IMG/VR virus record: IMGVR_UViG_3300030090_003678
Location: 28,598-76,944 of that record
Reading direction: 5' to 3' (one strand)
From: a virus
DNA length: 48,347 nt
Under the pieces are notes generated by a model. The model saw only the letters and a program-made list of their open reading frames with translations, ran no database searches and was not told where the DNA came from. The translations under genes and the position numbers were made by a program. Numbering within the stretch: position 1 is the stretch's first letter; each line of letters begins with the position of its first letter. Of this stretch, positions 4,914-22,345 are shown piece by piece.

Positions 4914-5904
4914 TCTTGGAACGCTAGAGTTTTGCCAGCAAAAATATTTTTTGCAATACAACCTCTCCTTCAAAGACAAAACCAACGCAAAAGCCTTGAT
5001 GGGTACTATTACCCATAAAGTCATGCAGACTCTTGGAGACAAGAAAGTCGCAATGAATAAAGGTCTTGATATTGTAGAAGACGAAGAGACTGGCAGGAAC
5101 CTGACATTAGAAGAGTGTGACAATCTTGAGCTTTTGAACAATATAGCTTTCGATTATTACACAAACGCTTTCCCAGAAGTCAATCTTGGAGAGAAAGAAA
5201 AAAGGCAATGTCTTCGCTGGGCAGAAAAAGCTGTAGCTTATCAAGATGGATTGTTAGATCCTAGAAACCAAAACGTATTTGCGACTGAGTTATTTTTTGA
5301 CATAGAGATAAAAAAACCTTGGGCAAAATACAAGTATGAATTTGAAGGGCAAACAATAGAAGGATACTTATCAATAAAAGGCACTGTTGACCTCATCCTA
5401 GAACATGGTGACGGATACTACGAAATACTAGATTACAAAACTGGAAAAAGAATAAACTGGGCAACAGGAGAAGAGAAGACTCACGAAAAACTACAGAAGG
5501 ACACACAATTACTTCTTTACTATTACGCCCTAAAGAATATGTATCCAGACAAGGAATTCTCAGTCAGCATTTATTACATCAATGACGGCGGACTATTCTC
5601 AATGGTGTTTGATGAAGAAGATTATGAAAAAGCCGAACAGATACTCAGAAAGAAGTTTGAGCAGATAAGAGACATAGAACAACCAAAACTCCTATCTAAT
5701 GAAAACAAGCATTGGAAATGCCAGAAGTTATGTAAGTTCAGTCAGCCCTACAAAGAAGGTGCTGAAAAAAGTGTTTGTCAATACATCAGAGACCAGATAA
5801 AAGGTCGAGGTATTGTCGAAGTTGTTGAAAAGTTTGGAAAAATTGAAAAGATCGCCACTTATGGAGATGGCGGCGGAAGATTAGCAGAAGATAATAAAAA
5901 ATGA
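4885..5904 (+). CDS. RecB/Cas4-like PD-(D/E)XK exonuclease with probable Fe-S cluster
   Basis: This 339-aa protein has the RecB-nuclease (PDDEXK_1) order of motifs: H44 in GTITHKVM, D169 in GTVDLIL, then EILDYKTGK with D183 and K185, and the QLLLYYYAL (Q-x-x-x-Y) helix. Four cysteines bracket the domain (C17, C279, C283, C298), the arrangement used for a 4Fe-4S cluster in Cas4 and AddB-type nucleases. A role in end resection or recombination alongside the replisome is likely. There is no CRISPR array or cas1/cas2 in the window, so a Cas4 role in adaptation is not supported. The start ATG lies within the preceding gene, and the stop overlaps the polymerase start as ATGA. Confidence 0.82.
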   Translation: MIVCYHRSSSLGTLEFCQQKYFLQYNLSFKDKTNAKALMGTITHKVMQTLGDKKVAMNKGLDIVEDEETGRNLTLEECDNLELLNNIAFDYYTNAFPEVNLGEKEKRQCLRWAEKAVAYQDGLLDPRNQNVFATELFFDIEIKKPWAKYKYEFEGQTIEGYLSIKGTVDLILEHGDGYYEILDYKTGKRINWATGEEKTHEKLQKDTQLLLYYYALKNMYPDKEFSVSIYYINDGGLFSMVFDEEDYEKAEQILRKKFEQIRDIEQPKLLSNENKHWKCQKLCKFSQPYKEGAEKSVCQYIRDQIKGRGIVEVVEKFGKIEKIATYGDGGGRLAEDNKK

Positions 5905-7811
5905 GTTGGACTCCACTACACCTACATACGCATTACAGTTTACTAGATGGCCTCTCTAAGCCCTCACAGGTCGCCTCACGCTGCTCAAAGCTCGGCTATA
6001 CCTCCTGTGCTATGACAGATCACGGCACTATATCTGGAGCTGTGGCCTTCACACAGGCAATGAAGAAAAAGAACATCAAACCAATACTTGGGTGTGAGTT
6101 CTACCTAAGCCAGCAAGATTGCACAATTAAAAACGAGGAAAATAGGAAGCTCAGTCACCTTTGCGTGTTAGCTAAAAACAAGCAGGGTTGGGACAATCTA
6201 ATTCAGGCAGTATCAAAAAGTAATGACGAAGAAAATTATTACTACAAACCAAGACTAGATCTTTCTACTCTAGGTCAGTTTTCTGATAACCTAATTGCTT
6301 TTTCTGGTCATCTAGGAAGTGATTTGGCCAATGCAATATTTGTTGATGTGAAGTCTGCGTATAACGCCGTAACGATTGACGAAGTCAAGAGGTACACACA
6401 TCCCGAATGGGATAAAAAGGTTCTAGAGATAGCCAATAAATATAGAGATATATTTGGTAAAGACAATTTCTTCATAGAAATACAAACCATTGATGAAGAA
6501 AACTCTCCTGCTTCAAATTTGGTAGCGCAAGGATTGAGATACATCGCTAAAAAATATGGATTCAGAACAGTTGCTACTGCTGACTCTCATTATCCAGAAA
6601 AGCAAGATGCTAATGACCAACTCTTGTTGTTATGTTCTTCTTTGAAGACAACTCTTCCAAAGATAAGAAAGAAGCTCAAAGAAACTGGAGACTCGGCTTT
6701 TACTGGCTTCATGAGGTCTAACAATTTTCATATACCTTCATTGGAAGAAATGCAGGCAGTCAATACTCCTCAAGAAATTGCTACAGCAATGGAAATCGCT
6801 GATATGTGTGAGGAGTATGATATTTTAGGCAAGCCAATGCTTCCTAAATTCAAATGCCCCAAAGAACAAACAGAAGAGCAATATCTCAGAAACCTATGTC
6901 GTGATGGATGGAAAAATGTATTAATGCCAACAGGCAAAGTTAATACCCAATCGGCAAAAGATTTATACACAGAGAGAATTAAAGCAGAGCTTGATGTCAT
7001 TAGTGAAGCCAATCTTTCTGGTTATTTTTTGATTGTTAGAGATATTGTTAATAGTGTGCATGAAAGAAATCATATTCCGGGTCCCGGAAGAGGTTCTGCT
7101 GCTGGATGTTTAGTGTCATACTTAGTTGGTATAACTCAAGTAGACCCAATTGAATATGGCTTAATTTTTGAAAGATTTTACAATGCTGGAAGAAATACTG
7201 CTGATAGAGTCTCCTTGCCTGATATTGATATTGATGTACCAGCTACTAAGCGCGATGAAACCATCGACTATATCCGACAAAAGTACGGAAACGAAAGAGT
7301 TGGTCAGATGGTAACTTTTGGTAGACTGCAAGGACGAAGCGCATTAAAAGAAGTTCTGCGCATGAATGAGGCTTGCGGTTTTGAAGAAATGAACAATATA
7401 ACCAAAAGTCTTCCGCACGAACATGAAGTATCCGATCAATTAGCTGAAATGGAAGAGTCTTCTGTTATAAAATGGACTCTAATGAATCAACCTGAATCTT
7501 TGCGTGGCTATTGCCGATTAAATGATGATGGTGAGCTTGAAGGAGACTACGCAAAAGTATTTGAACAAGCCATGAGAATTGAGGGGACTTTCAAATCTCA
7601 AGGAAAGCACGCTGCTGGCGTAGTCATATCTTCACATAACTTAGATCAAGTATGCCCTATGGTGAGAGACAAAAAAGGATCAGAAAAAATTGCTGGTCTT
7701 GAAATGAATGATTTAGAAGCTATGGGTCATGTAAAATTCGATATATTGGGAATCTCATTGATGGATAAAATTATGGGTGTGAGAAACCAACTAGAGAAAG
7801 CAGATGCATAA
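5901..7811 (+). CDS. dnaE: DNA polymerase III alpha (DnaE-type), N-terminal half: PHP + catalytic palm
   Basis: This 636-aa protein holds the first part of a C-family replicative polymerase. The PHP domain starts at once with HLHTHYSLLDG, then MTDHGT, GCEFYL and TADSHY, so its metal-binding His/Asp set looks complete. The palm has PGPGRGSAAG (393-402), PDIDIDV with D443/D445 (the first catalytic pair), and KFDILG with D614 (third catalytic Asp). The chain then stops about 22 residues past KFDILG, just where bacterial DnaE continues into the fingers. The missing part is encoded at 9428-11014. No intein sequence is present at the end. It overlaps the upstream nuclease by ATGA and the next ORF by ATGCATAA, so the stop is a normal gene junction rather than a late frameshift. 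Confidence 0.93.
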   Translation: MSWTPLHLHTHYSLLDGLSKPSQVASRCSKLGYTSCAMTDHGTISGAVAFTQAMKKKNIKPILGCEFYLSQQDCTIKNEENRKLSHLCVLAKNKQGWDNLIQAVSKSNDEENYYYKPRLDLSTLGQFSDNLIAFSGHLGSDLANAIFVDVKSAYNAVTIDEVKRYTHPEWDKKVLEIANKYRDIFGKDNFFIEIQTIDEENSPASNLVAQGLRYIAKKYGFRTVATADSHYPEKQDANDQLLLLCSSLKTTLPKIRKKLKETGDSAFTGFMRSNNFHIPSLEEMQAVNTPQEIATAMEIADMCEEYDILGKPMLPKFKCPKEQTEEQYLRNLCRDGWKNVLMPTGKVNTQSAKDLYTERIKAELDVISEANLSGYFLIVRDIVNSVHERNHIPGPGRGSAAGCLVSYLVGITQVDPIEYGLIFERFYNAGRNTADRVSLPDIDIDVPATKRDETIDYIRQKYGNERVGQMVTFGRLQGRSALKEVLRMNEACGFEEMNNITKSLPHEHEVSDQLAEMEESSVIKWTLMNQPESLRGYCRLNDDGELEGDYAKVFEQAMRIEGTFKSQGKHAAGVVISSHNLDQVCPMVRDKKGSEKIAGLEMNDLEAMGHVKFDILGISLMDKIMGVRNQLEKADA

Positions 7812-8022
7812 AAAAAGCCACAGAGAGTCCATAAAAGAAAAGATAACAAACGGAAGATACGTTGAGTATAGAGGCTTATCTATTTGTAAGATAAATGATT
7901 TTTACCCTCTTACTAACGGGAAAATAAAATACCAAGTTCACTCATATTACTTTAGTGAGCTTTATGAAGATATTGAAGAAGCGTTAGATAGATTTTTTGA
8001 GATAAGAAGGAAAATTAGATGA
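7804..8022 (+). CDS. Small hypothetical protein inside the split polymerase locus
   Basis: This 72-aa basic protein is not recognised. It has a charged N-terminal helix, a short beta-rich middle (YVEYRGLSICKIND, then KIKYQVHSYYF) and a C-terminal amphipathic helix ending FFEIRRKIR. Its ATG lies in the final codons of the polymerase N-half (8-nt overlap), and its stop overlaps the exonuclease start by 4 nt. It is therefore locked translationally between two replisome subunits. A small replisome accessory protein, or a protein bridging the two polymerase halves, is an attractive guess with no direct support. Confidence 0.6.
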   Translation: MHKKSHRESIKEKITNGRYVEYRGLSICKINDFYPLTNGKIKYQVHSYYFSELYEDIEEALDRFFEIRRKIR

Positions 8023-8702
8023 ATTATAGAGACATTATTGTCTTTGATTTTGAAACTGGATCAAGGAATCCAGATAGAACTCAGCCAGTACAAATTGCCG
8101 CAGTTGCCATACATGGGCGAAAACTAACAATTCAACCTGATGGTTATTTCAATAGCTTGATGCGTCCAATATTTGACGATGAAGAAGCTTTAGAGCTTGG
8201 GTTAGACCCAATAGAAGACGAAGCTCTTGCCGTGAACGGTAAAACAAGAGAAGAGCTAGCAAAGGCTCCATCCGCTAAAACAGTATGGAAGAAGTTCACT
8301 AATTTTGTAAACAAATACAACTTCAAAAAAACACCTTATTATGCCCCAATAGCCGCTGGATATAACATTGTCGGCTTTGATATGCCTATAGTTCAAAGAT
8401 TGTGCGATATGTATGGGCCAATAGACAAAAAGACAGGAAAACAAACTTTGTTTAATAAAATCCACAGGATCGACGTAATGGATAATGTCTGGATGTGGAT
8501 GGAAAACAATGCTGATGTAAAATCCCTAAGCATGGATTCCATGAGAGACTTATTTGGCATGAGCAAAGAAAACGCTCATGATGCGTTACAAGACGTTAAA
8601 GATACCGCCAATCTTATGATTGGCTTTATGAAACTACATCGCCGTGTTGCACCTAAAGTTAAATTTGAAAAGGCGTTTGCAGATGGAAACATCCACATAT
8701 AA
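8019..8702 (+). CDS. DnaQ-like 3'-5' proofreading exonuclease (epsilon type)
   Basis: This 227-aa DEDDh exonuclease has all three motifs. ExoI is FDFETG with D10 and E12. ExoII is the AGYNIVGFDMP stretch, with the Asp preceded by an N-x4 helix cap. ExoIII is HDALQD with H187 and D192. It should remove misincorporated 3' nucleotides for the phage polymerase. Its place between the two polymerase halves, joined by 4-nt and 20-nt overlaps, argues that it is made with them in fixed proportion, like the epsilon subunit of Pol III. No clear C-terminal polymerase-tethering tail of the bacterial epsilon type is visible. Confidence 0.9.
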   Translation: MNYRDIIVFDFETGSRNPDRTQPVQIAAVAIHGRKLTIQPDGYFNSLMRPIFDDEEALELGLDPIEDEALAVNGKTREELAKAPSAKTVWKKFTNFVNKYNFKKTPYYAPIAAGYNIVGFDMPIVQRLCDMYGPIDKKTGKQTLFNKIHRIDVMDNVWMWMENNADVKSLSMDSMRDLFGMSKENAHDALQDVKDTANLMIGFMKLHRRVAPKVKFEKAFADGNIHI

Positions 8703-9420
8703 AGAAGAAGTCTGGAAGCAATTAAATGCTATTTCAAAAAAGTCTTGGAGAATGGCTTTAAAGCAATTATTTTCAGACCCAACAAACAGATCTCAAGTTG
8801 ACGCTTTGAGAAAAGAAAATGATCTAACAGCAGCTTACGAATTTGGTGTTTACTCTGGAAAGAGCATAGTAGAAATTGCAAACAACATAGTAGATATTGA
8901 AGTTATTTATGGCTTTGACTCTTTTCAAGGTTTGCCAGACAACACCGATAAAGAAAGAAAAGACTCCATAGCAAAATCAGATTTTTACCAATGGAAGTCT
9001 GGAGATTTCGATGCCTCCAGTCTTTATGAAACCAAAGACGTTAAATCTTTCTTAAGTGAAATTTTTGCAGAAAATTTAAATACGCCAGTGCATTTAATAG
9101 AGGGTTGGTTTAGCAAAACTCTCAACAAAGAAACCATAAGAAAATACGACTTGAAGCCAGCGTCTTATATTGACATTGATGTTGATACTTATTCTTCTTG
9201 TTGCGAAGTGTTGGACTTTGTTTTCGATAATCAAATTGCTGTTTCTGGAACAGTTATTGGATTTGACGATTGGGGTGGAACTGTTAACTGGAAAACTTTT
9301 GGAGATGGTGTTTCCAAATCTTTCGTAGACTCTCTAAAAAAACATGGAGTTGAAGCGGATTTTGTGGTTCAGGTAGGAGCTTCTTATCCTCATGTACATA
9401 GATTATATTTGGTAAGGTGA
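8683..9420 (+). CDS. Class I SAM-dependent methyltransferase (TylF/CmcI-like)
   Basis: From the ATG at 8683 it is 245 aa. Motif I is AYEFGVYSGKS, the acidic end of strand 2 is YGFDSFQGLPD, and ASYIDIDVDTYSS and GFDDWGGT give the Asp-rich metal and substrate loops. This layout fits the TylF/macrocin O-methyltransferase group, which usually methylates sugars or small hydroxylated molecules. An in-frame TTG at 8644 would extend it, but AAAAGG at 8668-8673 fits the ATG at 8683 better. It lies between epsilon and the polymerase C-half, a strange place for a sugar-type methyltransferase. Its relatives in purpose lie in the glycan island, so it may be a cargo insertion. Confidence 0.75.
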   Translation: METSTYKEEVWKQLNAISKKSWRMALKQLFSDPTNRSQVDALRKENDLTAAYEFGVYSGKSIVEIANNIVDIEVIYGFDSFQGLPDNTDKERKDSIAKSDFYQWKSGDFDASSLYETKDVKSFLSEIFAENLNTPVHLIEGWFSKTLNKETIRKYDLKPASYIDIDVDTYSSCCEVLDFVFDNQIAVSGTVIGFDDWGGTVNWKTFGDGVSKSFVDSLKKHGVEADFVVQVGASYPHVHRLYLVR

Positions 9421-9427
9421 TTGTCTT

Positions 9428-11014
9428 ATGAATACTTTTGATCCACTTAAAGTTAGCTTTAATGATGAGGCAACTTGGGACTTGATTTGTTCTGGACATA
9501 CTAAAGGAGTCTTTCAGCTTGAAAGTAATCTCGGTAAGTCTTGGGCTAAACGAGTTAAGCCTAGAAATGTTGAAGAACTTGCTGCGTTAATTTCTATCAT
9601 CAGGCCGGGTACATTAAAAGCCATTCAAGATGGCAAGTCAATGACCCAAAGGTTTGTTGACAGAAAAAACCTAACCGAAGAAATAATTTATATCCATGAC
9701 TCCCTTGAGCCAATCCTCAAGAACACTCAAGGAGTTCTTGTGTATCAAGAGCAGTCTATGCAGATAGCGCAGCAGCTAGCTGGATTTGACCTTCAAGAAG
9801 CCGACAATCTAAGAAAAGCGATTGGAAAGAAAAAAGCCGATCTAATGGCTAAAATCAAAAAGCAATTCTTAGCAGGCACAAAAAAGAAAGGCATAGTAGA
9901 TGCAACGACGGCAGAAGAAATATTTAGTTGGATCGAAAAGTCCAGCCGTTATGCTTTTAACAAGTCTCATGCAGTCTCTTATGCAATTTGCGCTTATTGG
10001 AGTGCTTACGCTAAAGCACATTATCCACTTGAGTTTTACTGCAACTATCTTCTGCATTCGTCGAGCAAGATAGATCCTCAGCTTGAAGTAAAACAATTAG
10101 TAAATGACGCAAAAAATAATGAGATATACATCAATCCTCCATCTGTAAAAGCAATAAATGCGAAGACAGACATAATCGACAAAGAAATTTATTTCGGTTT
10201 ATTAGATGTAAAGACTGTTGGTGAGCGACAGGTAAACAAATTCAAAGAAGTTGTTGAAGATAACGAAATTCGCATTAATAAAGATCTGAAAGATTGGTCT
10301 TGGTATGAATTTCTAGTTCTTGCTTCACCTAGCCTTAGTTCTAGAATGCTTGTTGCGGTCATATCTGTTGGCTTTTTTAGTCATCTACCAGAATCTAGGT
10401 CTAGAATGATTGACGAGCTAGATACTTGGAATGAGCTTACCAAAAAAGAAAAAGAATGGGCAATTGATAACTTCCATAGATTCGACAACATAATAGACTT
10501 GCTGGTAGCATTGGCTCCAACCAAAAAAGAAGGTGGTGGAACTTTCAACTCAAAAAGGTCAATCAAGATAAAAGACTTAGTGATTCAATGCAAGAACCCT
10601 TCTTACTCCCTGAATGATGACCCAGAATGGGTTATAAGAACAGAAGAGCATTATTTGGGAGTTGCTCTTACTTACTCTAGAGTCGAGGCTTATGACACTA
10701 GGCTAGCTAACACAACAATAAAAGAGTTTGTTGATGGAAAGCGTGGAGATGTTAAAATAGCAGTAACGATATCTGAAGTTAAAAAATGGGTCACTAAAAA
10801 AGGAAAAATGCAAGGATCTGAAATGGCTTTTCTTTGCGTTGAAGATACGACTGGAACACTTGATACTGTCACCGTCTTCTCTGAAAAGTGGAAAGAATAC
10901 AAGAATGTACTCTATCCCGGAAATAATGTCATAATTTCTGGAGCTAGCAGTGCTTCAAGCAGAAGACAAATAGATGACGGGCTTGTTGTTCAAGACATTA
11001 TAGAGCTGAATTGA
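9428..11014 (+). CDS. dnaE: DNA polymerase III alpha (DnaE-type), C-terminal half: fingers, HhH and OB domain
   Basis: This 528-aa protein begins MNTFDPLKVSFND and aligns with bacterial DnaE from the sequence right after the third catalytic Asp. It has GVFQLES, then RPGTLK, YQEQSMQIA and the fingers motif LRKAIGKKKADL (about 129-140). NKSHAVSYA (about 178-186), a helix-hairpin-helix-like LLDVKTVGERQ, and an OB fold from about residue 442 (VKIAVTISEVKKW) to the end follow. With the 636-aa half the total is 1164 residues, the usual length of DnaE, so nothing appears lost. It must assemble with the N-half, since all three catalytic Asp are there. A GGTGA about nine bases before the ATG is a plausible ribosome-binding site. 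Confidence 0.92.
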   Translation: MNTFDPLKVSFNDEATWDLICSGHTKGVFQLESNLGKSWAKRVKPRNVEELAALISIIRPGTLKAIQDGKSMTQRFVDRKNLTEEIIYIHDSLEPILKNTQGVLVYQEQSMQIAQQLAGFDLQEADNLRKAIGKKKADLMAKIKKQFLAGTKKKGIVDATTAEEIFSWIEKSSRYAFNKSHAVSYAICAYWSAYAKAHYPLEFYCNYLLHSSSKIDPQLEVKQLVNDAKNNEIYINPPSVKAINAKTDIIDKEIYFGLLDVKTVGERQVNKFKEVVEDNEIRINKDLKDWSWYEFLVLASPSLSSRMLVAVISVGFFSHLPESRSRMIDELDTWNELTKKEKEWAIDNFHRFDNIIDLLVALAPTKKEGGGTFNSKRSIKIKDLVIQCKNPSYSLNDDPEWVIRTEEHYLGVALTYSRVEAYDTRLANTTIKEFVDGKRGDVKIAVTISEVKKWVTKKGKMQGSEMAFLCVEDTTGTLDTVTVFSEKWKEYKNVLYPGNNVIISGASSASSRRQIDDGLVVQDIIELN

Positions 11015-11432: not shown

Positions 11433-11904
11433 AAAAGCGTTAGACGCTAAAGAGCTTGAGGAAAAACTCATCCAAGACAATTACGGGTTGGTTATTTCAC
11501 AGGCTCTTCGTTTTTTTGAAGACCCTAACTTTGACGATTACGTTCAGGCCGGTTTGATAGGCTTGCTAAAAGCAATCAGAAAATACGATAGTAGTAAATC
11601 CCAGTTTGTGAAATATGCTGCTACTTGCATAAAAAACTCTATATCCAGTTTGCAGAAAAAAATAAACAATCATGGATCAAAAAAGGTAAGAGTTGTAATA
11701 GAGCAAGACAAGCAATATTCAACAAAAGAGCGATTAAAAAACTTATTGCCAGAATCCATATCTGATGACGATAGGTTTATACTAAATTGCAGAATAGAGG
11801 GATATACCAACTCAGAGATAGCTAGCTTCATGATGTCTAACAAGAATGAAATTAAGAGCAGAATAGAAATCATAATAAAAACTTTGCAAGATCACAATAA
11901 ATGA
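11419..11904 (+). CDS. Small sigma70-family-like factor (regions 2 and 4)
   Basis: This 161-aa protein starts at GTG within the SSB gene. Residues about 38-75 match sigma region 2: FDDYVQAGLIGLLKAIRKYD and then FVKYAATCIKNSI, the helices that bind core polymerase and the -10 element. A basic linker leads to a region-4-like helix-turn-helix at about 113-155 (DRFILNCRIEGYTNSEIA, then an NEIKSRIE recognition helix). The length fits an ECF-type factor. It probably redirects host RNA polymerase to a phage gene class, perhaps the late structural genes. The next gene starts as ATGA on its stop. Confidence 0.72.
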   Translation: MSKNKKALDAKELEEKLIQDNYGLVISQALRFFEDPNFDDYVQAGLIGLLKAIRKYDSSKSQFVKYAATCIKNSISSLQKKINNHGSKKVRVVIEQDKQYSTKERLKNLLPESISDDDRFILNCRIEGYTNSEIASFMMSNKNEIKSRIEIIIKTLQDHNK

Positions 11905-13532
11905 GAAAAAAAAGAATACTATTTTGCGGCGAGGCTACATATCTTAATACTGGATATGCTACTTATCTTCGTGAAATTATGAAAAGGCTGCACGCCACTG
12001 GAAAGTATGAGTTAGCAGAGTTCGCTAGCTATGGAGAACAGGGCAGTCCAAGTGCATCATCTATTCCTTGGCATTTTTACGGAAATCTTCCAGTAAATGA
12101 TGAGCAAAAAGAAGTATACGACTCGGTTCCCACAAACCAATTTGGTGAATGGAAATTTGAGGCTGTGCTTTTGGATTTTCTTCCTGATATTGTTTGCGAC
12201 ATTCGAGACTTTTGGATGCTTGAGTTTCAGGAAAGATCTCCGTTCAGACCTTACTATCATTGGGTGATAATGCCCACTGTTGATGCGTTTCCTCAAAATG
12301 AACAATGGTTAGCAACTTTTGCTAATGCAGACGGTGTCTTCAATTATTCAGATTGGGGACATGATGTGCTAAAAAAAGAATCGAACGGCAAAATCAAATG
12401 CTTAGGTTCTGCTCCTCCTTCTGCTGACGCTGCTTATGTCCCTGTAGAAGACAAGCAAAAACACAAGATGAGTTTTGGTTTTGATCCCAAAGCAAAGTTT
12501 GTTGGCACGGTAATGAGAAATCAGAGAAGGAAACTATTTCCCGATCTATTTGAAGCATTCAGACTATTCCTCGATATGTCTGGAGATAATGACACTTATC
12601 TATATTGCCATACAAGCTATCCTGATCTCGGCTGGGATATACCAAAACTATTAAACCAATACTCCTTGTCTAGTAAAGTTCTATTTACCTATGTCTGTAA
12701 TAACTGCGGACATACTTTTCCCTCATTCTTTTCTGATGCTAGAAGAAAATGCGGATCTTGCGGTAAATTCTCTGCTGGACTATCAAATGTTCAAAAAGGA
12801 GTATCTTACGAATACTTAGCAAGCACAATGAATATATTTGATTTGTATATTCAATATGCAAATAGCGAGGGGTTTGGTTTACCTCAAGTAGAAGCAGCGG
12901 CTTGCGGTGTTCCAGTTATGAGTGTTGATTATTCAGCAATGAGTAGCGTAGTAAGAAAATTAGGTGGAGTCCCACTAAAAACAAAAGCTTTATACAACGA
13001 AGTGGAAACAGCCTGCAATAGAGCAGTCCCAGATAACGAGAACACAGCAAGAGAGATTAAAAAGTTTTTTGATCTTAGCGAAGTCGAAAGAAAGTCTTTA
13101 TCTAATACAACAAGACTAAATTTTCAAAAATACTATCAATGGGATAAAACAGCCAAGAAGTGGGAAGAATACTTTGACAGTGTAGACATTAGGCCATCAA
13201 ACCAAAGTTGGGGCGCTCCTGCTAAATTACATCAGCCATCACCTCAGTTGAATATTGATCTACCTCCTTCGGAATATGCTAGGTGGTTAATAACAGATGT
13301 GTTAGGAGAGCAAGAAAAATTAGGAACATACTTTGAGTCTAGGTTAATACGAGACCTGAACTATGGAATGTATATCAATGGTGCTGGAGAAATGTATCTC
13401 AATGAAGACTCCTATAAATTTGTTAAGCCAAACTATGAAGAGTTTGGGCAAGAAGAAGCTTACGAAATGATGGTTGGCCTCTGCAACAGAAGGAATCAAT
13501 GGGAACAAAAAAGGAAAGACCTTTTATCATGA
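11901..13532 (+). CDS. GT-B glycosyltransferase (GT4-like) with inserted zinc ribbon
   Basis: This 543-aa protein opens with RILFCGEATYLNTGYATYLR, a GT-B acceptor-domain glycine loop. The donor-sugar half starts at KFVGTVMRNQRRK and ends with SEGFGLPQVEAAACGVPV, the E-x7-E-type motif of retaining GT4 enzymes. Between them, at about residues 265-292, a rubredoxin-like zinc ribbon (CNNC ... CGSC) is inserted, which is unusual for GT4. About 100 extra C-terminal residues carry W/Y-rich helices. It is the first gene of the glycan island and joins the sigma-like gene by ATGA. The acceptor is unknown. Confidence 0.82.
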   Translation: MRKKRILFCGEATYLNTGYATYLREIMKRLHATGKYELAEFASYGEQGSPSASSIPWHFYGNLPVNDEQKEVYDSVPTNQFGEWKFEAVLLDFLPDIVCDIRDFWMLEFQERSPFRPYYHWVIMPTVDAFPQNEQWLATFANADGVFNYSDWGHDVLKKESNGKIKCLGSAPPSADAAYVPVEDKQKHKMSFGFDPKAKFVGTVMRNQRRKLFPDLFEAFRLFLDMSGDNDTYLYCHTSYPDLGWDIPKLLNQYSLSSKVLFTYVCNNCGHTFPSFFSDARRKCGSCGKFSAGLSNVQKGVSYEYLASTMNIFDLYIQYANSEGFGLPQVEAAACGVPVMSVDYSAMSSVVRKLGGVPLKTKALYNEVETACNRAVPDNENTAREIKKFFDLSEVERKSLSNTTRLNFQKYYQWDKTAKKWEEYFDSVDIRPSNQSWGAPAKLHQPSPQLNIDLPPSEYARWLITDVLGEQEKLGTYFESRLIRDLNYGMYINGAGEMYLNEDSYKFVKPNYEEFGQEEAYEMMVGLCNRRNQWEQKRKDLLS

Positions 13533-14641
13533 AAGTCCTTTACATAGGTTGTTATAGAGATGGTACTGGTTGGGGGCAAGCAGCCATAGATTACATACTT
13601 GCTATGGATCTTGCAGGAATTGATGTAGTTCCTAGACCAATCAAGCTTAACTCTAGAAATCATCAGCCACCAAAAAGAATCTTGGAGTTAGAGGCCAAGA
13701 GTTCAAGCGGTGCGGATATATGTATTCAACATACATTGCCGCACTTAATGGATTACAGCAATAAATTCAAAAAGAACATTGCTCTTTATGCTACAGAGAC
13801 AGACAGTTTTGTTGATTCTGGCTGGTCTAGAAAAATCAATATGATGGACGAAGCATGGGTGATAAACAACCAAATGGTCGAATCCTCAAAGAAAAGCGGA
13901 GTCAATATACCAATAAAGGTTGTTCCTCATGCTAGTGATGTAAAAAAGTTTTATAAAAAGTACGACAAGCTTACATTGCCGCAAGCAGAAGGAAATTTTG
14001 TCTTTTACACGATTGCTGATCTGAACAAAAGAAAAAATCTTGAATCTTTTATAAGAGCTTTTCATACTGAGTTTGAGCCTTCAGAGCCTGTTTCAATACT
14101 TATTAAGTCATCGAAATATGGAATGGCCGCAGAAGATACGGCAAAAAACATAAAAGATATATGCAACAAAGTAAAGTCTGGTATTAAAAAATTCATCAGC
14201 CTCGATGCTTACAAAGAAGACCTAATAATCGCAGATTTTATTAACGATGAAGCAATTTGTGGAATACATGAAAGCTGTGATTGTTTTGTGATGCCCAGCT
14301 ATGGAGAGGCTTGGTGCATCCCTGCTTTTGACGCTATGGGGTTTGGCAATACTCCTATCTGTACGAATGTTGGTGGAATGGCTGACTTCGTTGGACATGC
14401 TGGATTCTTGATTGAGGGGAGGCTAGAGCCTGTTAGAGACATGACAGAGACTTTTGCAGACCTGTTTACTGGAAACGAAAATTGGCTATCTATTGACGAG
14501 CTAGAGCTTATGAAAGTAATGAGACATGTTTATGAAAACAAAGACGAGCTATCAAGGATGCGTCAAGAAGGTTTAGAACAAGCACAGAAGTATTGTCATA
14601 AGAATATTGGCGATTTAATGAAGGGGTTGTTAGATGCTTAG
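13529..14641 (+). CDS. GT4-family glycosyltransferase
   Basis: From the ATG that overlaps the previous stop as ATGA it is 370 aa. Features of a retaining GT-B enzyme are the GTGWGQAAIDYILAM loop at the N-terminus, VPHASDVKKF in the hinge, YTIADLNKRKNLE starting the donor domain, and MPSYGEAWCIPAFDAMGFG at the nucleotide-sugar site. An in-frame ATG at 13499 would add 10 residues but breaks the coupling pattern shared with neighbours. It lies among other glycosyltransferases, so it probably adds one sugar of the same glycan. Confidence 0.85.
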   Translation: MKVLYIGCYRDGTGWGQAAIDYILAMDLAGIDVVPRPIKLNSRNHQPPKRILELEAKSSSGADICIQHTLPHLMDYSNKFKKNIALYATETDSFVDSGWSRKINMMDEAWVINNQMVESSKKSGVNIPIKVVPHASDVKKFYKKYDKLTLPQAEGNFVFYTIADLNKRKNLESFIRAFHTEFEPSEPVSILIKSSKYGMAAEDTAKNIKDICNKVKSGIKKFISLDAYKEDLIIADFINDEAICGIHESCDCFVMPSYGEAWCIPAFDAMGFGNTPICTNVGGMADFVGHAGFLIEGRLEPVRDMTETFADLFTGNENWLSIDELELMKVMRHVYENKDELSRMRQEGLEQAQKYCHKNIGDLMKGLLDA

Positions 14642-15647
14642 TCCAATCACTTCGATAATTAGAGCAGCCACCAGAAAGAAAGAAGATAAGCTCAATATTC
14701 TCACTTTCCCAACGCATGAGCGTTATGAAAGCATGTTGGCTAAAACTGGTCATAACTTTTACGCATATCGAGCAGAAGGAATAAAAGACTGGAACGAGAC
14801 TTATGCCAAAATTCCAGAAAATTACACTCTTCTAGATCCTGCTCTTGGAGATGCTCAAGTTCCTCAGTATGTTGATTTTGATTTAGTTCTTTCGCAGAAC
14901 AAGTTTGGTCAATTTCAAAAAGCAATACAGCTATCAAAGACTCTGCACCTACCCCTCATTAGCTTAGAGCATACACTTCCTATGCCTCAATGGGATAGCA
15001 ATGTTATGACGCAAGTTAGGAACATGAGAGGTGATTTGAATCTTTTTATATCAAAATACAGCATTAATGCTTGGGGATGGGAAGATAAGAGCGACACGAG
15101 TGTCATAACTCATGGAATAGATACGGATTTGTTCTGTCCAGCGGATGTTGAAAGAAGCGACGAAATCCTATCAGTCGTTAATGATTGGATAAACAGAGAT
15201 TGGTGTTGCGGTTTCAATATATGGAGAGAGACAATAGATGGATTGCCTTATAAAGTTGTTGGCGATACACCCGGTTTGTCTAAGCCAGCGTCTTCTACTG
15301 AAGAACTAGTCTCAAACTACCAGACCAGTAGAATATTTTTGAATACTTCAACAATATCTCCAGTTCCAACAGCTTTAATGGAGGCAATGTCTTGTGGGTG
15401 TGCTGTAGTCTCTACTGCAACCTGCATGATTCCAGAAGTCATAAAACATGGAGAGAATGGATTTATAACAAACGATCCTAGAGAAATGAAAGAATATTTA
15501 GTTCAGCTTTTGAACGACGAAGACTTATCAAAAGAAATGGGTGAAAAAGCTAGAGAAAGCATTGTTTCTAGGTATTCTGCTGACAAATTTGTTACTAAAT
15601 GGAATAAGTTTTTAGACATTGCGTCTAGAAAAGTTTATAGAGGCTAA
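14634..15647 (+). CDS. GT4-like glycosyltransferase
   Basis: This 337-aa protein overlaps the previous gene by ATGCTTAG. The acceptor domain contains LISLEHTLPMPQWD and LFISKYSINAWGW, with the loop VITHGIDTDLF before the donor domain. The donor domain carries TSTISPVPTALMEAMSCGCAVV and the PEVIKHGENGFI stretch typical of GT4. The donor-domain entry is shorter than in the previous two enzymes. It should be a soluble cytoplasmic transferase. Sugar and acceptor are unknown. Confidence 0.83.
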   Translation: MLSPITSIIRAATRKKEDKLNILTFPTHERYESMLAKTGHNFYAYRAEGIKDWNETYAKIPENYTLLDPALGDAQVPQYVDFDLVLSQNKFGQFQKAIQLSKTLHLPLISLEHTLPMPQWDSNVMTQVRNMRGDLNLFISKYSINAWGWEDKSDTSVITHGIDTDLFCPADVERSDEILSVVNDWINRDWCCGFNIWRETIDGLPYKVVGDTPGLSKPASSTEELVSNYQTSRIFLNTSTISPVPTALMEAMSCGCAVVSTATCMIPEVIKHGENGFITNDPREMKEYLVQLLNDEDLSKEMGEKARESIVSRYSADKFVTKWNKFLDIASRKVYRG

Positions 15648-15648
15648 T

Positions 15649-16113
15649 ATGAAAATTAGAATAACTGTAGGCGCTAATGAGCAACTAAGTGGGTATGTAA
15701 ACATAGATCCAATTAGCAAGTTTAATGACTTAGCAATAGACATACGAGATTTAAGTGAGGTTGTAGAGAACTCTGAATGTAGAGAAATCTTGGCTGAAGA
15801 TGTTATTGATTTTCTTGAAAAAAAGGAATCGTTTACGGTAATATCAAATTGGATTAGTAAATTAAGACATGGCGGCAAAATAATAATTACCTCAGTGGAC
15901 GCTCATGTGACCAGCGGACTACTATATAAAGGAAAGATAGAATTAAGCACATTTAACAAGCTTATGCATGGAAATTTTACTGCACCTTGGGATGTTAAAC
16001 TTAGTCATAGCACTATAGAAGAGATGTCTAGTTTCCTTATCTCTCAAGGGTTGGTAATTAACAAAAAAAGACAAAATGGCCCACATATGATAATAGAGGC
16101 AGAAAGACCATGA
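15649..16113 (+). CDS. Small, possibly degenerate SAM methyltransferase-like protein
   Basis: From the ATG at 15649 it is 154 aa. It matches the plan of short methyltransferases of the Methyltransf_11 type: TVGANEQLSGYVNIDP replaces the usual glycine-rich L-x-L-G-x-G motif, followed by AIDIRDLSE, and LRHGGKIIITSVD is the strand after the catalytic helix. The glycine motif is reduced, and the usual E-H-x-x-E-H box reads LAEDVIDFLE. SAM binding may therefore be weak or lost. Its place between glycosyltransferases suggests glycan methylation or a structural partner. An in-frame alternative start at 15619 lies inside the previous gene and is less likely. Confidence 0.6.
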   Translation: MKIRITVGANEQLSGYVNIDPISKFNDLAIDIRDLSEVVENSECREILAEDVIDFLEKKESFTVISNWISKLRHGGKIIITSVDAHVTSGLLYKGKIELSTFNKLMHGNFTAPWDVKLSHSTIEEMSSFLISQGLVINKKRQNGPHMIIEAERP

Positions 16114-16961
16114 CAGACGAATTGTCAGATTTATTTTCCGAAATGCAAGATTCGGGAACCAAAAAAGAAACATCGGAATTGGTGACTTCTTGTGAAGATT
16201 GTATTTTTCTAGAAGACCTTGATTGCAAACTTGGCAATATATCTAAGTACCAAAAAAGAGGAGTACGAGTATTGCAATCAGAAGGCAAGGAAGGTCAACC
16301 AACACTAACTGTTGGCACTATATGCCATACATATAGAACAGAGCTATGGGAATTAGCCAACGATGATGCAGAGGATATACTCGACGTTTTGGAATCGGAG
16401 ACCGACCCAAAAGTTGGATTTTTCATCCTAGTAAAAAATAATCATGAAGGACTAGAAAGAAGCATAAAATCAATTCTCGACCAAGAGATATTTTCAGCAA
16501 AGTATATTTTAGTAAGTTCTACTCATGAAACTGATCAAATAGAAATAATACAAAAAACACAATCAATTCTTGCAGGCACAGAAATACCATATAAGGTTCA
16601 ACGAATTCTTGAAGAAGAAGTGACAGATGATCAATTTATAGACTTGTCATTTTCTAACGCAAAAAACGGCTATTATTGCGTATTAGAGTGTGGACATGAA
16701 ATACCAAGTGATTTAATAAAAATACTACACAAAGCTTTAGTATTTGATCTTCATAGCGTAGCTTATGTAGAGGGTTACGAAGGAGTAAATGGAAGAACAG
16801 TACAATGCTCAATGCACAAGTTCCTTATTGGAAATAAAGGAGCAACAGTAAAAACAAAGATATTAGAAGGCGAAGACTACGACAGACAACAAGCTAAATC
16901 AGAGCTGAGACCAATAAGAAAAGATTCAATGGTAAAAACTTGGGATGAACTAAGAAAATGA
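16110..16961 (+). CDS. GT-A-like protein with N-terminal cysteine cluster, probably catalytically altered
   Basis: This 283-aa protein starts as ATGA on the previous stop. Residues about 28-70 hold SCEDCIF ... LDCKLG ... TICHTY, a likely metal or Fe-S site. From about residue 105 a GT2-like fold begins, VGFFILVKNNHEGLERSIKSILDQE, the usual first strand and helix of GT-A enzymes. Where GT2 enzymes have a D-x-D metal motif, this protein has VLECGHEIPSD, so the canonical DxD is missing. It may be an accessory or regulatory subunit of the active GT2 encoded next, or an enzyme with a different metal site. Confidence 0.6.
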   Translation: MTDELSDLFSEMQDSGTKKETSELVTSCEDCIFLEDLDCKLGNISKYQKRGVRVLQSEGKEGQPTLTVGTICHTYRTELWELANDDAEDILDVLESETDPKVGFFILVKNNHEGLERSIKSILDQEIFSAKYILVSSTHETDQIEIIQKTQSILAGTEIPYKVQRILEEEVTDDQFIDLSFSNAKNGYYCVLECGHEIPSDLIKILHKALVFDLHSVAYVEGYEGVNGRTVQCSMHKFLIGNKGATVKTKILEGEDYDRQQAKSELRPIRKDSMVKTWDELRK

Positions 16962-17725
16962 GCCTACCTAAAGTAACAATACTGATTGCAAATTATAACG
17001 ATGAAGATTATCTAGACAGATGTATTGAAAGCGCTATAAATCAAGACTATCCGGGACATTTAAATATATGTATCGTAGATGATGGATCTACAGATAGTTC
17101 TTGGGAGATAATCCAGTCTTACTTTGATGATAAAGATGGAGATTTATTAGAGAAGACAAATACTGGCAGGTTTGGCAACACAAACTTGACTGCTATAAAA
17201 AGTAAAAATGGAGGACCTAGTCCTGCAAGGAACATAGGAATAAACCATACGCTCAATGATACAGATATATATGCAATATTGGACTCAGACGATGAAATGT
17301 ATGAAGACAAAATAAGTAGTTGCGTCTCAGTATTTGGAAAAGGTGGTGGAGCTATTGGAGTTGTATATGGAGATTATGATGTTCTTCATACATCGACTGG
17401 AAAAATAATAAGAGAGTATAAAGAGCCTTACAATAGGAGAAGGTTGGTAAGAGAGTGTATAGTTCATAGCGGATCTCTCATACTAAAAGAAGCATTAGTT
17501 TCTGTCCAAGAAGACACAGGTTTTTATGATGAAAATATGCGCACCTGTGAAGATTATGATTTGTGGATGAGAATTAGCGAAAAATACATCATAGCCCATG
17601 TTCCTAAATCATTGACTAAGGTTAGAGTGACTGGGGACAACTCTTCATTCATTGTGAACCAAGAGATCTGGCAAAAAAATTGGTCCAGAGTAATGGAAAA
17701 AATGCAAGCAAGATTAAATGGCTAA
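16958..17725 (+). CDS. GT2-family glycosyltransferase
   Basis: This 255-aa inverting GT-A enzyme is a textbook GT2. It has TILIANYNDEDYLDRCIESAI at the N-terminus, IVDDGSTDSS for the nucleotide, GGPSPARNIGI, the DxD-type ILDSDDEM, and CEDYDLWMRIS carrying the catalytic-base region. It transfers a sugar from a nucleotide sugar, probably in the cytoplasm. No membrane helix is present, so the acceptor may be soluble. It overlaps the neighbours by 4 and 8 nt. Confidence 0.9.
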   Translation: MSLPKVTILIANYNDEDYLDRCIESAINQDYPGHLNICIVDDGSTDSSWEIIQSYFDDKDGDLLEKTNTGRFGNTNLTAIKSKNGGPSPARNIGINHTLNDTDIYAILDSDDEMYEDKISSCVSVFGKGGGAIGVVYGDYDVLHTSTGKIIREYKEPYNRRRLVRECIVHSGSLILKEALVSVQEDTGFYDENMRTCEDYDLWMRISEKYIIAHVPKSLTKVRVTGDNSSFIVNQEIWQKNWSRVMEKMQARLNG

Positions 17726-18425
17726 TAGATTCACCACAAAAATTAAAAAGAGTGGATCGGGCTTGAAGCCAGAAAACCCTCTATCAGTAGTTATACCTGT
17801 AGCAGGTATGGGTCATAGGATGAAGTCTTATGGCCCAAAATGTTTGCTGCAAGCAAACCAACAAGAAACCATACTAGAAAAGACAATAAAGAATATAAAA
17901 AAAGAATATCCTTTTTCTGACATAATAGTCGTAGCAGGTTTTGAATCTGAAAAAATAGTAAAAACTTTGCCACACGACATAAGAATTGTAGAAAATTACA
18001 ATTATCAGGATAGCAATATAGTAGAGAGTATAAGGCTTGGCATTAATGCATCTTCACATGAAAACATTATGGTTATATATGGAGATTTAATTTTTAATGT
18101 TTACTCAATACGTCATATAACCTCAGATGGTTCTTGTATAATTGTGGATTCAAAGTCCAGATTCAAGGACGAGGAGATAGGAGTCACAGTTGTTGATGAT
18201 CACGTTACAGCTTTTGCTTACGGGTTATCAAAAAAATGGTCTCAAATAGTCTACCTAGAAGGCAAAGAATTTTTTGCTATGAAAAAACTATGTTCAGATA
18301 AGAGAAAAAACAAACTCTATTTATTTGAATTGCTTAATATTATGATCAACAACGGACATCAAATAAAAGCAAAAGAACCCAAGGGTATGTTAATAAAAGA
18401 AATAGATTCACTAAAGGATTTGTAA
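17718..18425 (+). CDS. NTP-transferase (sugar-1-phosphate or phosphocholine nucleotidyltransferase-like)
   Basis: This 235-aa protein shows the nucleotidyltransferase opening VVIPVAGMGHRMKSYGPKCLL (glycine-rich loop plus the Lys that contacts the NTP), then VVAGFESEKIV, IRLGINAS and the metal motif MVIYGDLIF. It ends with a short C-terminal substrate lobe (YLFELLNIMINN). The order resembles CTP:phosphocholine or sugar-1-phosphate nucleotidylyltransferases of the MobA/RmlA superfamily. It would activate a building block for the transferases around it. The substrate cannot be told from the sequence. Confidence 0.78.
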   Translation: MANRFTTKIKKSGSGLKPENPLSVVIPVAGMGHRMKSYGPKCLLQANQQETILEKTIKNIKKEYPFSDIIVVAGFESEKIVKTLPHDIRIVENYNYQDSNIVESIRLGINASSHENIMVIYGDLIFNVYSIRHITSDGSCIIVDSKSRFKDEEIGVTVVDDHVTAFAYGLSKKWSQIVYLEGKEFFAMKKLCSDKRKNKLYLFELLNIMINNGHQIKAKEPKGMLIKEIDSLKDL

Positions 18426-18574
18426 TGGGAAATTATTGGGGTTGGATTAAAAACAACTACAAATGGTACGCTTGGAAATACGTAGAAGACAAAGTTAAAG
18501 TCAAGCTTGGACCATTTTATACGATAGAAGAAGCACAAGAAGCGGCAGAAGAATATGAAAATTCTAATAAGTAG
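18425..18574 (+). CDS. 49-aa Trp-rich hypothetical protein
   Basis: This short reading frame begins MGNYWGWIKNNYKWYAWKYV and continues with a basic strand, a LGPFYTIEEAQEA turn and helix, then NSNK. It has four Trp in 17 residues and a G-P-F-x-T-x-E-E-A pattern common in small phage proteins that form a strand-helix unit. It is coupled at both ends: its ATG overlaps the previous stop (TAATG), and the next gene starts 20 nt before its stop. These junctions are the same types used all along the arm, which supports a real gene. Function unknown. Confidence 0.6.
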   Translation: MGNYWGWIKNNYKWYAWKYVEDKVKVKLGPFYTIEEAQEAAEEYENSNK

Positions 18575-19604
18575 TGACGGACCTCATGCTCATTATTATA
18601 TAAGACAAGCGTGGGGAAAAGTATTTTCTTCAATAGGACATCAAGTTTCTTTGTGGGATATAAACACAAAGAGTGTTTTTGATGCATTTGATGAGTTTGA
18701 ACCTGATATCTTCATGGGGCAAACATACAATGTTACCGAAGGCTTAGTGCAGTGTATTAAAGAAAGACCTCACTTAAAAGTTGCAATGCGAGCATCTGAT
18801 TGGGGTGAATTTCAGGACAATATCGACCTTGATAAGTATCCAATTCTTGTTGCTCAAGAAAAAGAAAAGAAGCTACTTGACCGATTAAAGAAAGAAACAG
18901 GAAAACCAGACTTTGTTCACAATCATTACACACAAAGCTGGATAGATGTGACACACAACCGCTGGCAAGACATGTTAGGCATTAAGCCTGTTTCACTAAT
19001 ACATGCCGCAGACCTGTATGATTTCCACCCAAAACCAAGACTTAGCGTGTTAGATTGCGACATAGCGTTTGTGGGAGGTTACTGGCCTTACAAGGCGGAA
19101 CGACTTGACCCATATATTGTCAGTTTGTGTCATCCTGTTGGTGATTACAAAATAAAAATATTTGGCTCCAACTGGCCTGTAGTTCAAAATCATGGAGTAA
19201 TTGCCACAGACAACATCTCATCTCTTTTTGCTTCCGCTAAGGTTTGTTTGAATGTCAGCGAGCCTCACTCTCAAGACTTTGGTTACGACATCATAGAACG
19301 TCCATTTAAAATATTGTCTAGTGGTGGGTTTTGCATATCCGACTATGTAGAGTCAATGGCAAACGAAGTGTTTACAAATAATGAGATCGTTTTTGCTAAG
19401 ACCCCAAAAGAATTTAAGCAACTAATTGACTACTATGTTAATAACCCAAACGAAAGAGTACCCTATATGCAATCTGGCTATCAGTGCGTTATAGAAAATC
19501 ATACATACTTTGAAAGAGTAGAAACAATACTTCTAGAGCTAGGATTGAGCAACGAAGCTGCAAAATGCGCGCAGGCTAAACTAGCACTTTTTGGAGATGA
19601 ATAA
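18555..19604 (+). CDS. CgeB-like glycosyltransferase (GT-B)
   Basis: This 349-aa protein resembles the CgeB/DUF3880 group of GT-B proteins. The first domain opens KILISSDGPHAHYYIRQAW and has FEPDIFMGQTYN. The second has DCDIAFVGGYWPYKAERL, then IKIFGSNWPV, SSLFASAKVCLNVSEPHS and the RPFKILSSGGFCISDY motif that lines the nucleotide-sugar site. It starts inside the preceding 49-aa gene (20-nt overlap). A role in the same phage glycan pathway is likely. Confidence 0.8.
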   Translation: MKILISSDGPHAHYYIRQAWGKVFSSIGHQVSLWDINTKSVFDAFDEFEPDIFMGQTYNVTEGLVQCIKERPHLKVAMRASDWGEFQDNIDLDKYPILVAQEKEKKLLDRLKKETGKPDFVHNHYTQSWIDVTHNRWQDMLGIKPVSLIHAADLYDFHPKPRLSVLDCDIAFVGGYWPYKAERLDPYIVSLCHPVGDYKIKIFGSNWPVVQNHGVIATDNISSLFASAKVCLNVSEPHSQDFGYDIIERPFKILSSGGFCISDYVESMANEVFTNNEIVFAKTPKEFKQLIDYYVNNPNERVPYMQSGYQCVIENHTYFERVETILLELGLSNEAAKCAQAKLALFGDE

Positions 19605-20545
19605 TGGCCACTTTAGTAACTGGAGGCAATGGCTTTGTAGGACAGCACCTAATAAAGACATTGAAAGAAAACAGCTCTGTTTTTGGAAAGATAATTAATG
19701 TTAGCAGGAGAGAGTTTAACTCTCCTTACGTTGACATGAATTACAGATGCGATCTGGGTACATCTGATTATAATGATCCTGAATTCTACTGTCTGCGTTA
19801 TATTATGAAGACGCATGACCCAGAATATATCTTTCACTTAGCAAGTAAAGCCACAGTAAAGATGGATGGCACTGAGCCATTCGATATTATTCAAGACAAT
19901 ATCTTAAGTACGCAGAAAATCTGTGAATGGGCGCCGAAAGGCGCTAGAGTGGTTCTTGCCTCATCAGTTATTGTCTATGGTGACTGGATGTTCCAAGAAG
20001 ACGATGTTAGACCATACGTCGAAACGGATCGTACAGAACCAACTTCAATTTATGGAATGACTAAGCGAGCCTCCGAAGGAGTATTAAAATATCACACCAG
20101 CACGGAACAAATAAATGGCGTTTCGGCTCGTATGTGTGCTACTGTTGGGCGTGGTCTTACCCACGGAGTTGTTTATGATTTTATTAGGAAAATTCTAAAC
20201 AATCCCACATTAGAAGCTTTAGGAAGCTTTCCCGGTTCCACAAAACCATATATGCATGTTGATGATCTAGTCAAAGCCTTATCTTTATTGGCCTTGAAAA
20301 AGAAAGCTAGCGGAGAGTTTAATGTAGTACCGGACGATGTTATAAACATTCAAGAAGTAGCAGAGTCTGTAATGGACGGTTTGGATGTTTACAAAGAGAT
20401 AGAATGGCTGGGAGATGGAGCCAACTGGAAGGGCGACAACAAAATAATATCAGCAAGTAATCAAAAACTAAAAGACTTAGGTTGGTCTCCAGACTACACA
20501 TCAAAGCAAGCAATAAAAAAATCAGTAGAAGACTCAAAAGCATGA
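19604..20545 (+). CDS. NAD-dependent sugar epimerase/dehydratase (extended SDR)
   Basis: This 313-aa enzyme has TGGNGFVG at residues 5-12 for NAD binding. The catalytic pair is Y150-x3-K154 in IYGMTKRASEG, with an upstream Ser in VVLASSVIVYGD. The PYMHVDDLVKAL segment marks the substrate domain. It belongs with UDP-glucose 4-epimerase/dTDP-glucose 4,6-dehydratase-like extended SDRs, making or changing a nucleotide sugar. It is joined to its left neighbour by TAATG and to the right by ATGA. The exact sugar is not assigned. Confidence 0.85.
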   Translation: MATLVTGGNGFVGQHLIKTLKENSSVFGKIINVSRREFNSPYVDMNYRCDLGTSDYNDPEFYCLRYIMKTHDPEYIFHLASKATVKMDGTEPFDIIQDNILSTQKICEWAPKGARVVLASSVIVYGDWMFQEDDVRPYVETDRTEPTSIYGMTKRASEGVLKYHTSTEQINGVSARMCATVGRGLTHGVVYDFIRKILNNPTLEALGSFPGSTKPYMHVDDLVKALSLLALKKKASGEFNVVPDDVINIQEVAESVMDGLDVYKEIEWLGDGANWKGDNKIISASNQKLKDLGWSPDYTSKQAIKKSVEDSKA

Positions 20546-21564
20546 AAATTTTTTTCTGCCCTTTAATGCCAGTACAGATGCATGACGCAAGTTCTGTATC
20601 AGATTACCAATCAGACATGGTATTCCATGGATTGGTTAAAACTCTAGGTAAAGACTTGCATACAAGCCATAAAATGTGGTGGCATCACAAAAAAGAAAAA
20701 GATTCAAGACCCGAAGACTTCAAAAGAATATGGGGAAAAGGGTTCACTATGTATGGTCTTTTGGATGAAGACGAATACACAAGAGTAGAACCCAACCAAG
20801 AAGACGAAAATTATGATGCTGTGGTGATTCCTATTCATCATACGTTTACCCAACAAGATACGATGTTAGATAATTTTGTCACACATTTTATTAATAAAGG
20901 GTACAGCAGGAACCAGATCATTGTAGTCGATGGATGGGACAGAGAATATGTGAACGAGTCTATTGCTAAGAAATGCACATACTACAAGAGAGAGATGGCC
21001 GATTCGTTGTTGAGACACAAAGTTAAGCCAATATCTTTTGCTTTTCCATTAGAAAAAATACGTGAGCTGAACGACGACAATAGGACTTTGCCTTTTGCTC
21101 CTCTTATTCCAGTAAACCAATCAATTGACCCAAGCTATATGTCTACTTACAAATACGATGCTGAAGATTCGTATTACGACATGTATCAACAGTCTTTCTT
21201 TTCTTATACTTCAAAAAAGGGCGGATGGGATACCTTGAGGCATTATGAAATATTAGCTAATGGATCTATTCCATTTTTTGTTGATATAGAATACTGTCCG
21301 CAATACACTTTATGGAAATGGCCTAAAAATAGTTTGTGCCGAGCAAAATATCAGTATGGAGGCGTTCCTAATTTAGAAAAAGGTGAAACTTGGAGAAAGA
21401 AACCTCTTCGTCATTGTGGGTTTGTTGTCAAGGAATCTCCGGGAAGTTTATCGGAGGAGTTCAATATTGAAGAATGGAAGGCTATGAGAAACAAGTTATA
21501 CGAATGGTTAAAAACAGAAGGTTCTACAAACTCTTTAGCTGAATATATACTAGGTAATGTCTAA
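20542..21564 (+). CDS. Putative glycosyltransferase of exostosin-like type
   Basis: From the ATG that overlaps the previous stop (ATGA) it is 340 aa; an in-frame start at 20482 would run through the previous gene. Features are MKIFFCPLMPVQMHDASS at the start, a VVIPIHHTF strand, IIVVDGWDRE, and the late motif RHYEILANGSIPFFVDIEYCP. That motif matches the conserved R-x-x-E-x-L-x-x-G-x-I-P-x-F segment of exostosin/GT47-like and related phage transferases. It should act with the adjacent GT25-like enzyme. The family is inferred from the late motif, not the whole length. Confidence 0.6.
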   Translation: MKIFFCPLMPVQMHDASSVSDYQSDMVFHGLVKTLGKDLHTSHKMWWHHKKEKDSRPEDFKRIWGKGFTMYGLLDEDEYTRVEPNQEDENYDAVVIPIHHTFTQQDTMLDNFVTHFINKGYSRNQIIVVDGWDREYVNESIAKKCTYYKREMADSLLRHKVKPISFAFPLEKIRELNDDNRTLPFAPLIPVNQSIDPSYMSTYKYDAEDSYYDMYQQSFFSYTSKKGGWDTLRHYEILANGSIPFFVDIEYCPQYTLWKWPKNSLCRAKYQYGGVPNLEKGETWRKKPLRHCGFVVKESPGSLSEEFNIEEWKAMRNKLYEWLKTEGSTNSLAEYILGNV

Positions 21565-22277: not shown

Positions 22278-22296
22278 ACAGAATTATTTTTTTTCT

Positions 22297-22310
22297 TGTT
22301 ATAATAATAG
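22297..22310 (+). promoter_or_regulatory. Extended -10 promoter before the second sugar operon
   Basis: TG-T-TATAAT (22297-22305) fits an extended -10 element, continuing as TATAATAATAG. No good -35 lies 16-18 bases upstream (the spacer region is a T run), as expected for extended -10 promoters. It is the largest gap in the left arm (22278-22345) and sits 40 bases before the next ATG. The 10-mer TATAATAATA also stands before the 236-aa gene on the other strand. Confidence 0.55.
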
Positions 22311-22345
22311 CAGGATGGTCAAGATAATACACACGGAGTTAAAAT

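Follow-up and report, generated by a model that had tools for sequence, protein, structure and literature searches.

A family C (DnaE) DNA polymerase is encoded as two open reading frames (ORFs) in a 48,347-nucleotide (nt) stretch of viral DNA, positions 28,598 to 76,944 of the 76,944-nt IMG/VR virus record IMGVR_UViG_3300030090_003678, which is called the window here. The DnaE N half (5901-7811, 636 amino acids (aa)) and the DnaE C half (9428-11014, 528 aa) both lie on the + strand, at exactly the coordinates that an earlier note on this DNA had given. The gap between them (7812-9427) holds three genes, encoding a 72-aa protein, a DEDDh exonuclease and a TylF-like methyltransferase. Very probably, the two chains come together unspliced to form the phage replicase, with proofreading provided by the DEDDh exonuclease encoded between the halves. 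Chain 1, which comprises PHP and palm/thumb, would supply the metal-binding catalytic aspartates, and chain 2, with fingers, HhH and OB, would supply the motifs responsible in DnaE for binding the incoming nucleotide and the template. Both chains would be produced from one compact operon, and would rejoin, unspliced, across the former palm/fingers interface to make one DnaE-like enzyme. We infer this physical assembly, and the polymerase activity, from the selection acting on the halves and from their invariant motifs.

Domains of the two chains and position of the break

The N half matched the Pfam families PHP (E=2.6e-41) and DNA_pol3_alpha (E=7.8e-70), and the C half matched DNA_pol3_finger (E=6.6e-48), with traces of HHH_6 and OB. 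Read across both chains, the domains follow the DnaE order (nuclease-like PHP, palm/thumb, fingers, HhH, OB), with the three catalytic aspartates of a family C enzyme of the DnaE type. The catalytic aspartates are located in the N half, in PDIDID (440-445) and at D614; Asp 441, 443, 445 and 614 were identical in 87 of 87 sequences. In the C half, the motifs QxE, RPG, QEQ, GKK and FN.SH were invariant in all 91 sequences compared, and GVFQLES and GKK are intact in the window. The C half modelled alone by AlphaFold2 gave a confident structure (pLDDT 88.8). The significant PDB matches of this model in Foldseek were family C polymerases, the best of which were all PolIII alpha (TMq 0.70 to 7pu7, full length). 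The N half is thus assigned from its sequence to the PHP and palm/thumb of DnaE, and the C half from its predicted model to the DnaE fingers/HhH/OB fold.

Alignment with the DnaE of E. coli and with continuous phage DnaEs places the end of the N half near E. coli residue 577 and has the C half take up the chain near 583, so that the gap corresponds to the linker between the last palm aspartate and the fingers. The break had been placed near a palm/fingers junction and away from the cyanobacterial split-intein site; the alignment agrees with the former, and FNKSH, intact at C residues 177-181, agrees with the latter. The linker from KFDILG to FQLES is 47 aa in the window, while 88 continuous DnaEs have a median of 46 (range 40-59), and therefore no residues were lost at the junction. 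The locus has the form of a gene in pieces, with two complementary ORFs, a junction where nothing is missing, and neither intron nor intein found. The earlier view that the total of 1164 aa is a normal DnaE length and that nothing was lost holds for the junction, but not for the protein as a whole. The agreement with the 1160 aa of E. coli is partly fortuitous: the N half exceeds its E. coli counterpart in length, and the C half appears to stop after OB. The tau-binding C-terminal domain is apparently lacking, and in the clade relatives L046, L049 and L063 the alignment with E. coli DnaE extends no further than about 1070-1073.

Conservation of the split and independent breaks in other phages

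Relatives were collected from IMG/VR by three scans, two of which used the halves as queries and the third a diverged C half, down to about 40% identity, and the 93 distinct loci counted here are those with both halves and the exonuclease. In all 93, the order was N half, exonuclease, C half, and the usual single polypeptide of DnaE, which is not a catalytic feature, was replaced by two genes. Since the same order recurs in every distinct locus, the split is not explained by chance or assembly error. Relatives with a continuous polymerase gene had been named as the observation that would overturn the two-gene interpretation, and no close relative was continuous. Conversely, a comparable phage family (Rhizobium N1_10-like) has mostly full-length continuous genes. 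Bacterial DnaEs from 80 genome loci were single ORFs except in a few truncated or frame-shifted contigs and in L229 and L230, which are split-type phage contigs. These two were binned in a Flavobacteriales metagenome-assembled genome (MAG) and a Lokiarchaeota MAG, a putative link to hosts.

In a tree of 83 DnaEs, the 41 sampled split members formed one clade on a long stem with a Shimodaira-Hasegawa-like approximate likelihood ratio test (SH-aLRT) value of 100, and the split clade is accordingly assigned a single ancestry on this phylogeny. The ratio of nonsynonymous to synonymous substitution rates (dN/dS) was about 0.005-0.08 for the N half, the exonuclease and the C half in close pairs with unsaturated dS, values that indicate strong purifying selection on both halves. 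Each of eighteen whole records (62-195 kb) had a single N-half locus and a single C half; the N half is interrupted in that of L108 and contains stops in that of L124. No family A or B polymerase and no second or continuous DnaE was detected in these 18 records, the completeness of which was not established, and the split DnaE is apparently the only polymerase of the phage. Most members of the clade retain intact PHP metal ligands, but these are eroded in L054-L065, L141 and L144, with PHP also shortened in L054-L065. In the larger subclade, C halves such as those of L046, L072, L083 and L117 start with a short Cys-containing extension, e.g. FDCGC.

A search for the same split in other phages, as had been suggested, found similar breaks in isolated phages. 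The palm/fingers linker is also broken in Corynebacterium phage P1201 (gp59/gp58), Mycobacterium phage Fowlmouth (85/86) and Rossellomorea phage phiT1 (gp20/gp18). The halves overlap directly in P1201 and Fowlmouth, and a 49-aa ORF is present between them in phiT1; unlike in the window group, no exonuclease lies between. The approximately unbiased (AU) test rejected one clade of all linker-split forms (p=8.6e-96, and p=6e-4 without phiT1), and therefore the linker was apparently broken at least twice more, independently. The exact count of such breaks is limited by model misfit and long branches, and for the P1201/Fowlmouth group an ancestral split followed by re-fusions is formally still allowed in place of an independent break. 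A scan of viral contigs with phiT1 gp20 found no relatives. The independent breaks in other phage lineages suggest that the palm/fingers linker is a natural weak point in the polymerase chain. Other candidates were set aside: the genes neighbouring the apparently split DnaE of Vibrio phage PVA7 are broken too, a probable sequencing error, and KLEB27-3 and MMB025 are broken at other, conserved motifs.

The genes in the gap and the surrounding cluster

The exonuclease (8019-8702, + strand, 227 aa) is a predicted 3'-5' enzyme of the epsilon/DnaQ-like type, and matched Pfam RNase_T (3.1e-13) and phrog_192, 'DNA polymerase exonuclease subunit' (2e-25). Its D10, E12, D121, H187 and D192, the five residues of a DEDDh enzyme, were invariant in 19 aligned sequences. 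The earlier note had already recognized an epsilon-like exonuclease between the halves, and the survey extends this to all 93 loci; the methyltransferase had been overlooked. From the position of its gene, the exonuclease is expected to bind the polymerase and to proofread in trans. It is kept in the members with eroded PHP metal ligands, which is consistent with a role as the main proofreader. The exonuclease might also bridge the palm and fingers chains in an obligate three-chain N-E-C replicase, so that proofreading and polymerisation would be coupled through the assembly of the enzyme. Such a role would account for the constant position of its gene between the halves while the other gap genes vary, although we regard such bridging as rather unlikely. 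A homologue of the exonuclease in Bacteroides phages (25%) was considered as a similar system and discarded; its neighbours include ligase, helicase and terminase genes, with no split DnaE there.

The 72-aa protein S (7804-8022, + strand) is conserved within the window subclade at 25-73% identity. It gave a confident model of a small alpha/beta fold, with no Pfam, PHROG or convincing fold match. The larger subclade has in its place an ORF of about 60 aa, which is unrelated to protein S. The methyltransferase (8686-9420, + strand, 244 aa), a TylF-like class I S-adenosylmethionine (SAM) enzyme by its Pfam match (TylF, 1.1e-7), appears to be variable cargo between the exonuclease and the C half. 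It is confined to the closest relatives, with 47-48% homologues in L016/L066, and is missing from most loci. The genes from the N half through protein S and the exonuclease to the methyltransferase overlap consecutively by 8, 4 and 17 nt, and a 7-nt gap precedes the C half. Promoter and terminator scans of the + strand between the halves gave nothing convincing. Because of this close packing and the lack of convincing signals, the genes from the N half to the C half are likely carried on one transcript.

The split polymerase is located in a replication cluster with genes for a DnaB-like helicase, a Toprim primase, a deoxynucleoside monophosphate (dNMP) kinase, a RecB-like nuclease, a single-stranded DNA-binding protein (SSB) and a sigma-like protein. 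Further along the window, 11901-24231 and 26688-27332 contain a long run of glycosyltransferase-, nucleotidyltransferase-, NAD-epimerase- and methyltransferase-like genes, which suggests phage-encoded glycan synthesis.

Alternative explanations and comparison with known split enzymes

The halves could be joined by protein splicing, as with the cyanobacterial split intein, or by RNA splicing of the phage group I intron type. Relatives bear such elements elsewhere in the gene (in the C half of L062 and the N half of L105), and in Bacillus phage KLEB27-3 an HNH endonuclease lies between the polymerase pieces. At the window junction, however, just 19 aa of N tail follow the motif and just 28 aa of C head precede FQLES, with no Hint sequence. 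The sampled N tails run 12-28 aa past KFDxLG, and neither they nor the C heads contain intein sequence, as the earlier note had concluded for the window. The window has no IntN and IntC flanking a break at FNK/SH, a break that is present in L062. The halves have their own start and stop, lie in different frames and are separated by three genes, and the break lies in a non-conserved loop, not in a conserved motif of the kind that inteins and introns favour. Rfam detected no intron at the break even at a relaxed threshold, but this silence is weak evidence because Rfam was also blank in KLEB27-3, MMB025 and L105, where introns are plausible. Taken together, joining by splicing is highly improbable. 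A decaying or misassembled polymerase, with host PolIII copying the phage DNA, would fit the fact that bacterial hosts own a PolIII, and the erosion of PHP metal ligands in one lineage points the same way. We nevertheless find this explanation barely credible: the purifying selection on both halves is strong, the active-site residues are invariant, contigs from many samples concur, and the halves adjoin helicase, primase, SSB and RecB-like nuclease genes. Weighing against reassembly into a replicase, the two halves might conceivably work with other partners, host subunits among them, even though they are encoded together. In addition, no cultured member of the clade was found among 50,697 phage records, in which the best matches were about 35% or less over whole halves.

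Unspliced reassembly of the two chains is compatible with more than one origin of the split, because the origin and not the working of the enzyme is then at issue. A homing endonuclease, or its relic, may have interrupted an originally undivided dnaE, leaving a gap that was later filled by the exonuclease and other genes; we give this somewhat less than an even chance. HNH-like free-standing endonuclease ORFs, by motif reading (Pfam called no HNH), are found in the gap of L062, L063, L064, L065 and L113, and other genes of phages are known to have been divided by mobE-like insertions (PMC2988022). On the other hand, the gap contains no endonuclease in most loci, and homing endonucleases typically target better conserved sites than this one. 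The split is explained equally well by simple fission, with a stop and a re-start, as in P1201 and Fowlmouth with their directly overlapping halves. The mobile elements in the relatives point to a pressure on the gene and do not prove that they made the ancestral break.

Several such elements were observed. In L062 (11130-13962), the C half is broken again at FNK/SHA, with IntN ending one ORF, then an ORF for a DUF559/NUMOD3-type endonuclease, and IntC starting the next; its DnaE is thus in three genes, through the ancestral split and a split-intein break. In L105 (4108-7101; also L107, L108, L111 and L112), an interruption of the N half near PDIDID contains a LAGLIDADG ORF and is possibly an intron, and the neighbouring RecB-like nuclease gene of L105 (2123-4111) appears to be intein-bearing. 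The window itself encodes a 262-aa free-standing Vsr/EDxHD-type homing-endonuclease-like protein (24684-25472), with a weak match (27%, E=2e-5 pairwise) to the split-intein endonuclease of L062.

Essential phage enzymes in two unspliced pieces are known. The T4-related Aeromonas phages 25 and 44RR have a split gp43A/gp43B and phage Aeh1 a split NrdA, which are reported to co-purify or retain activity (PMC2988022); for the gp43A/gp43B pair of phage 25, both co-purification and activity have been described (review: PMC2988022). In contrast to the window system, these are a family B polymerase and a ribonucleotide reductase reported from a few phages, tied to mobile endonucleases or an untranslated insert and not to a proofreading exonuclease gene. 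Group 2.2 jumbo phages have a minimal split PolIII alpha whose two chains are predicted to reconstitute the enzyme (Iyer et al. 2021, PMC7824862). That enzyme consists of the catalytic and template-binding core only, without the other PolIII domains and with its genes far apart, and occurs alongside a family B polymerase (PMC7824862). The window system is not of this minimal type: it keeps PHP, HhH and OB, its genes are adjacent around the exonuclease, and no PolB was detected in the 18 records. Cyanobacterial DnaE is also in two genes, but its break is inside F-N-K-S-H, with intein halves and trans-splicing, of which there is none at the window junction. The OM43 phages MEP401/MEP402 have a split family A polymerase (PMC10580990); as in the window, a marine phage replicative polymerase is divided between two ORFs that flank a small unknown ORF, but the family differs and the authors suspected an intron (PMC10580990). 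A DnaE survey of about 2000 bacterial genomes reported cyanobacterial intein splits and treated other fragments as mostly frameshifts, with some errors (PMC3919608). No published description of the present system was found in the literature searched, which covers few subscription journals. Compared with these systems, what appears new is a full-domain split DnaE, apparently the sole polymerase of the phage and already present at the base of a large clade, in which the gap always holds a DEDDh exonuclease gene. A large, deep clade of environmental phages would have a stable, intein-free two-chain DnaE, and other lineages acquired similar breaks independently. The palm/fingers linker is indicated as a site where a replicase tolerates cutting, which may be of use for engineering a split DnaE.
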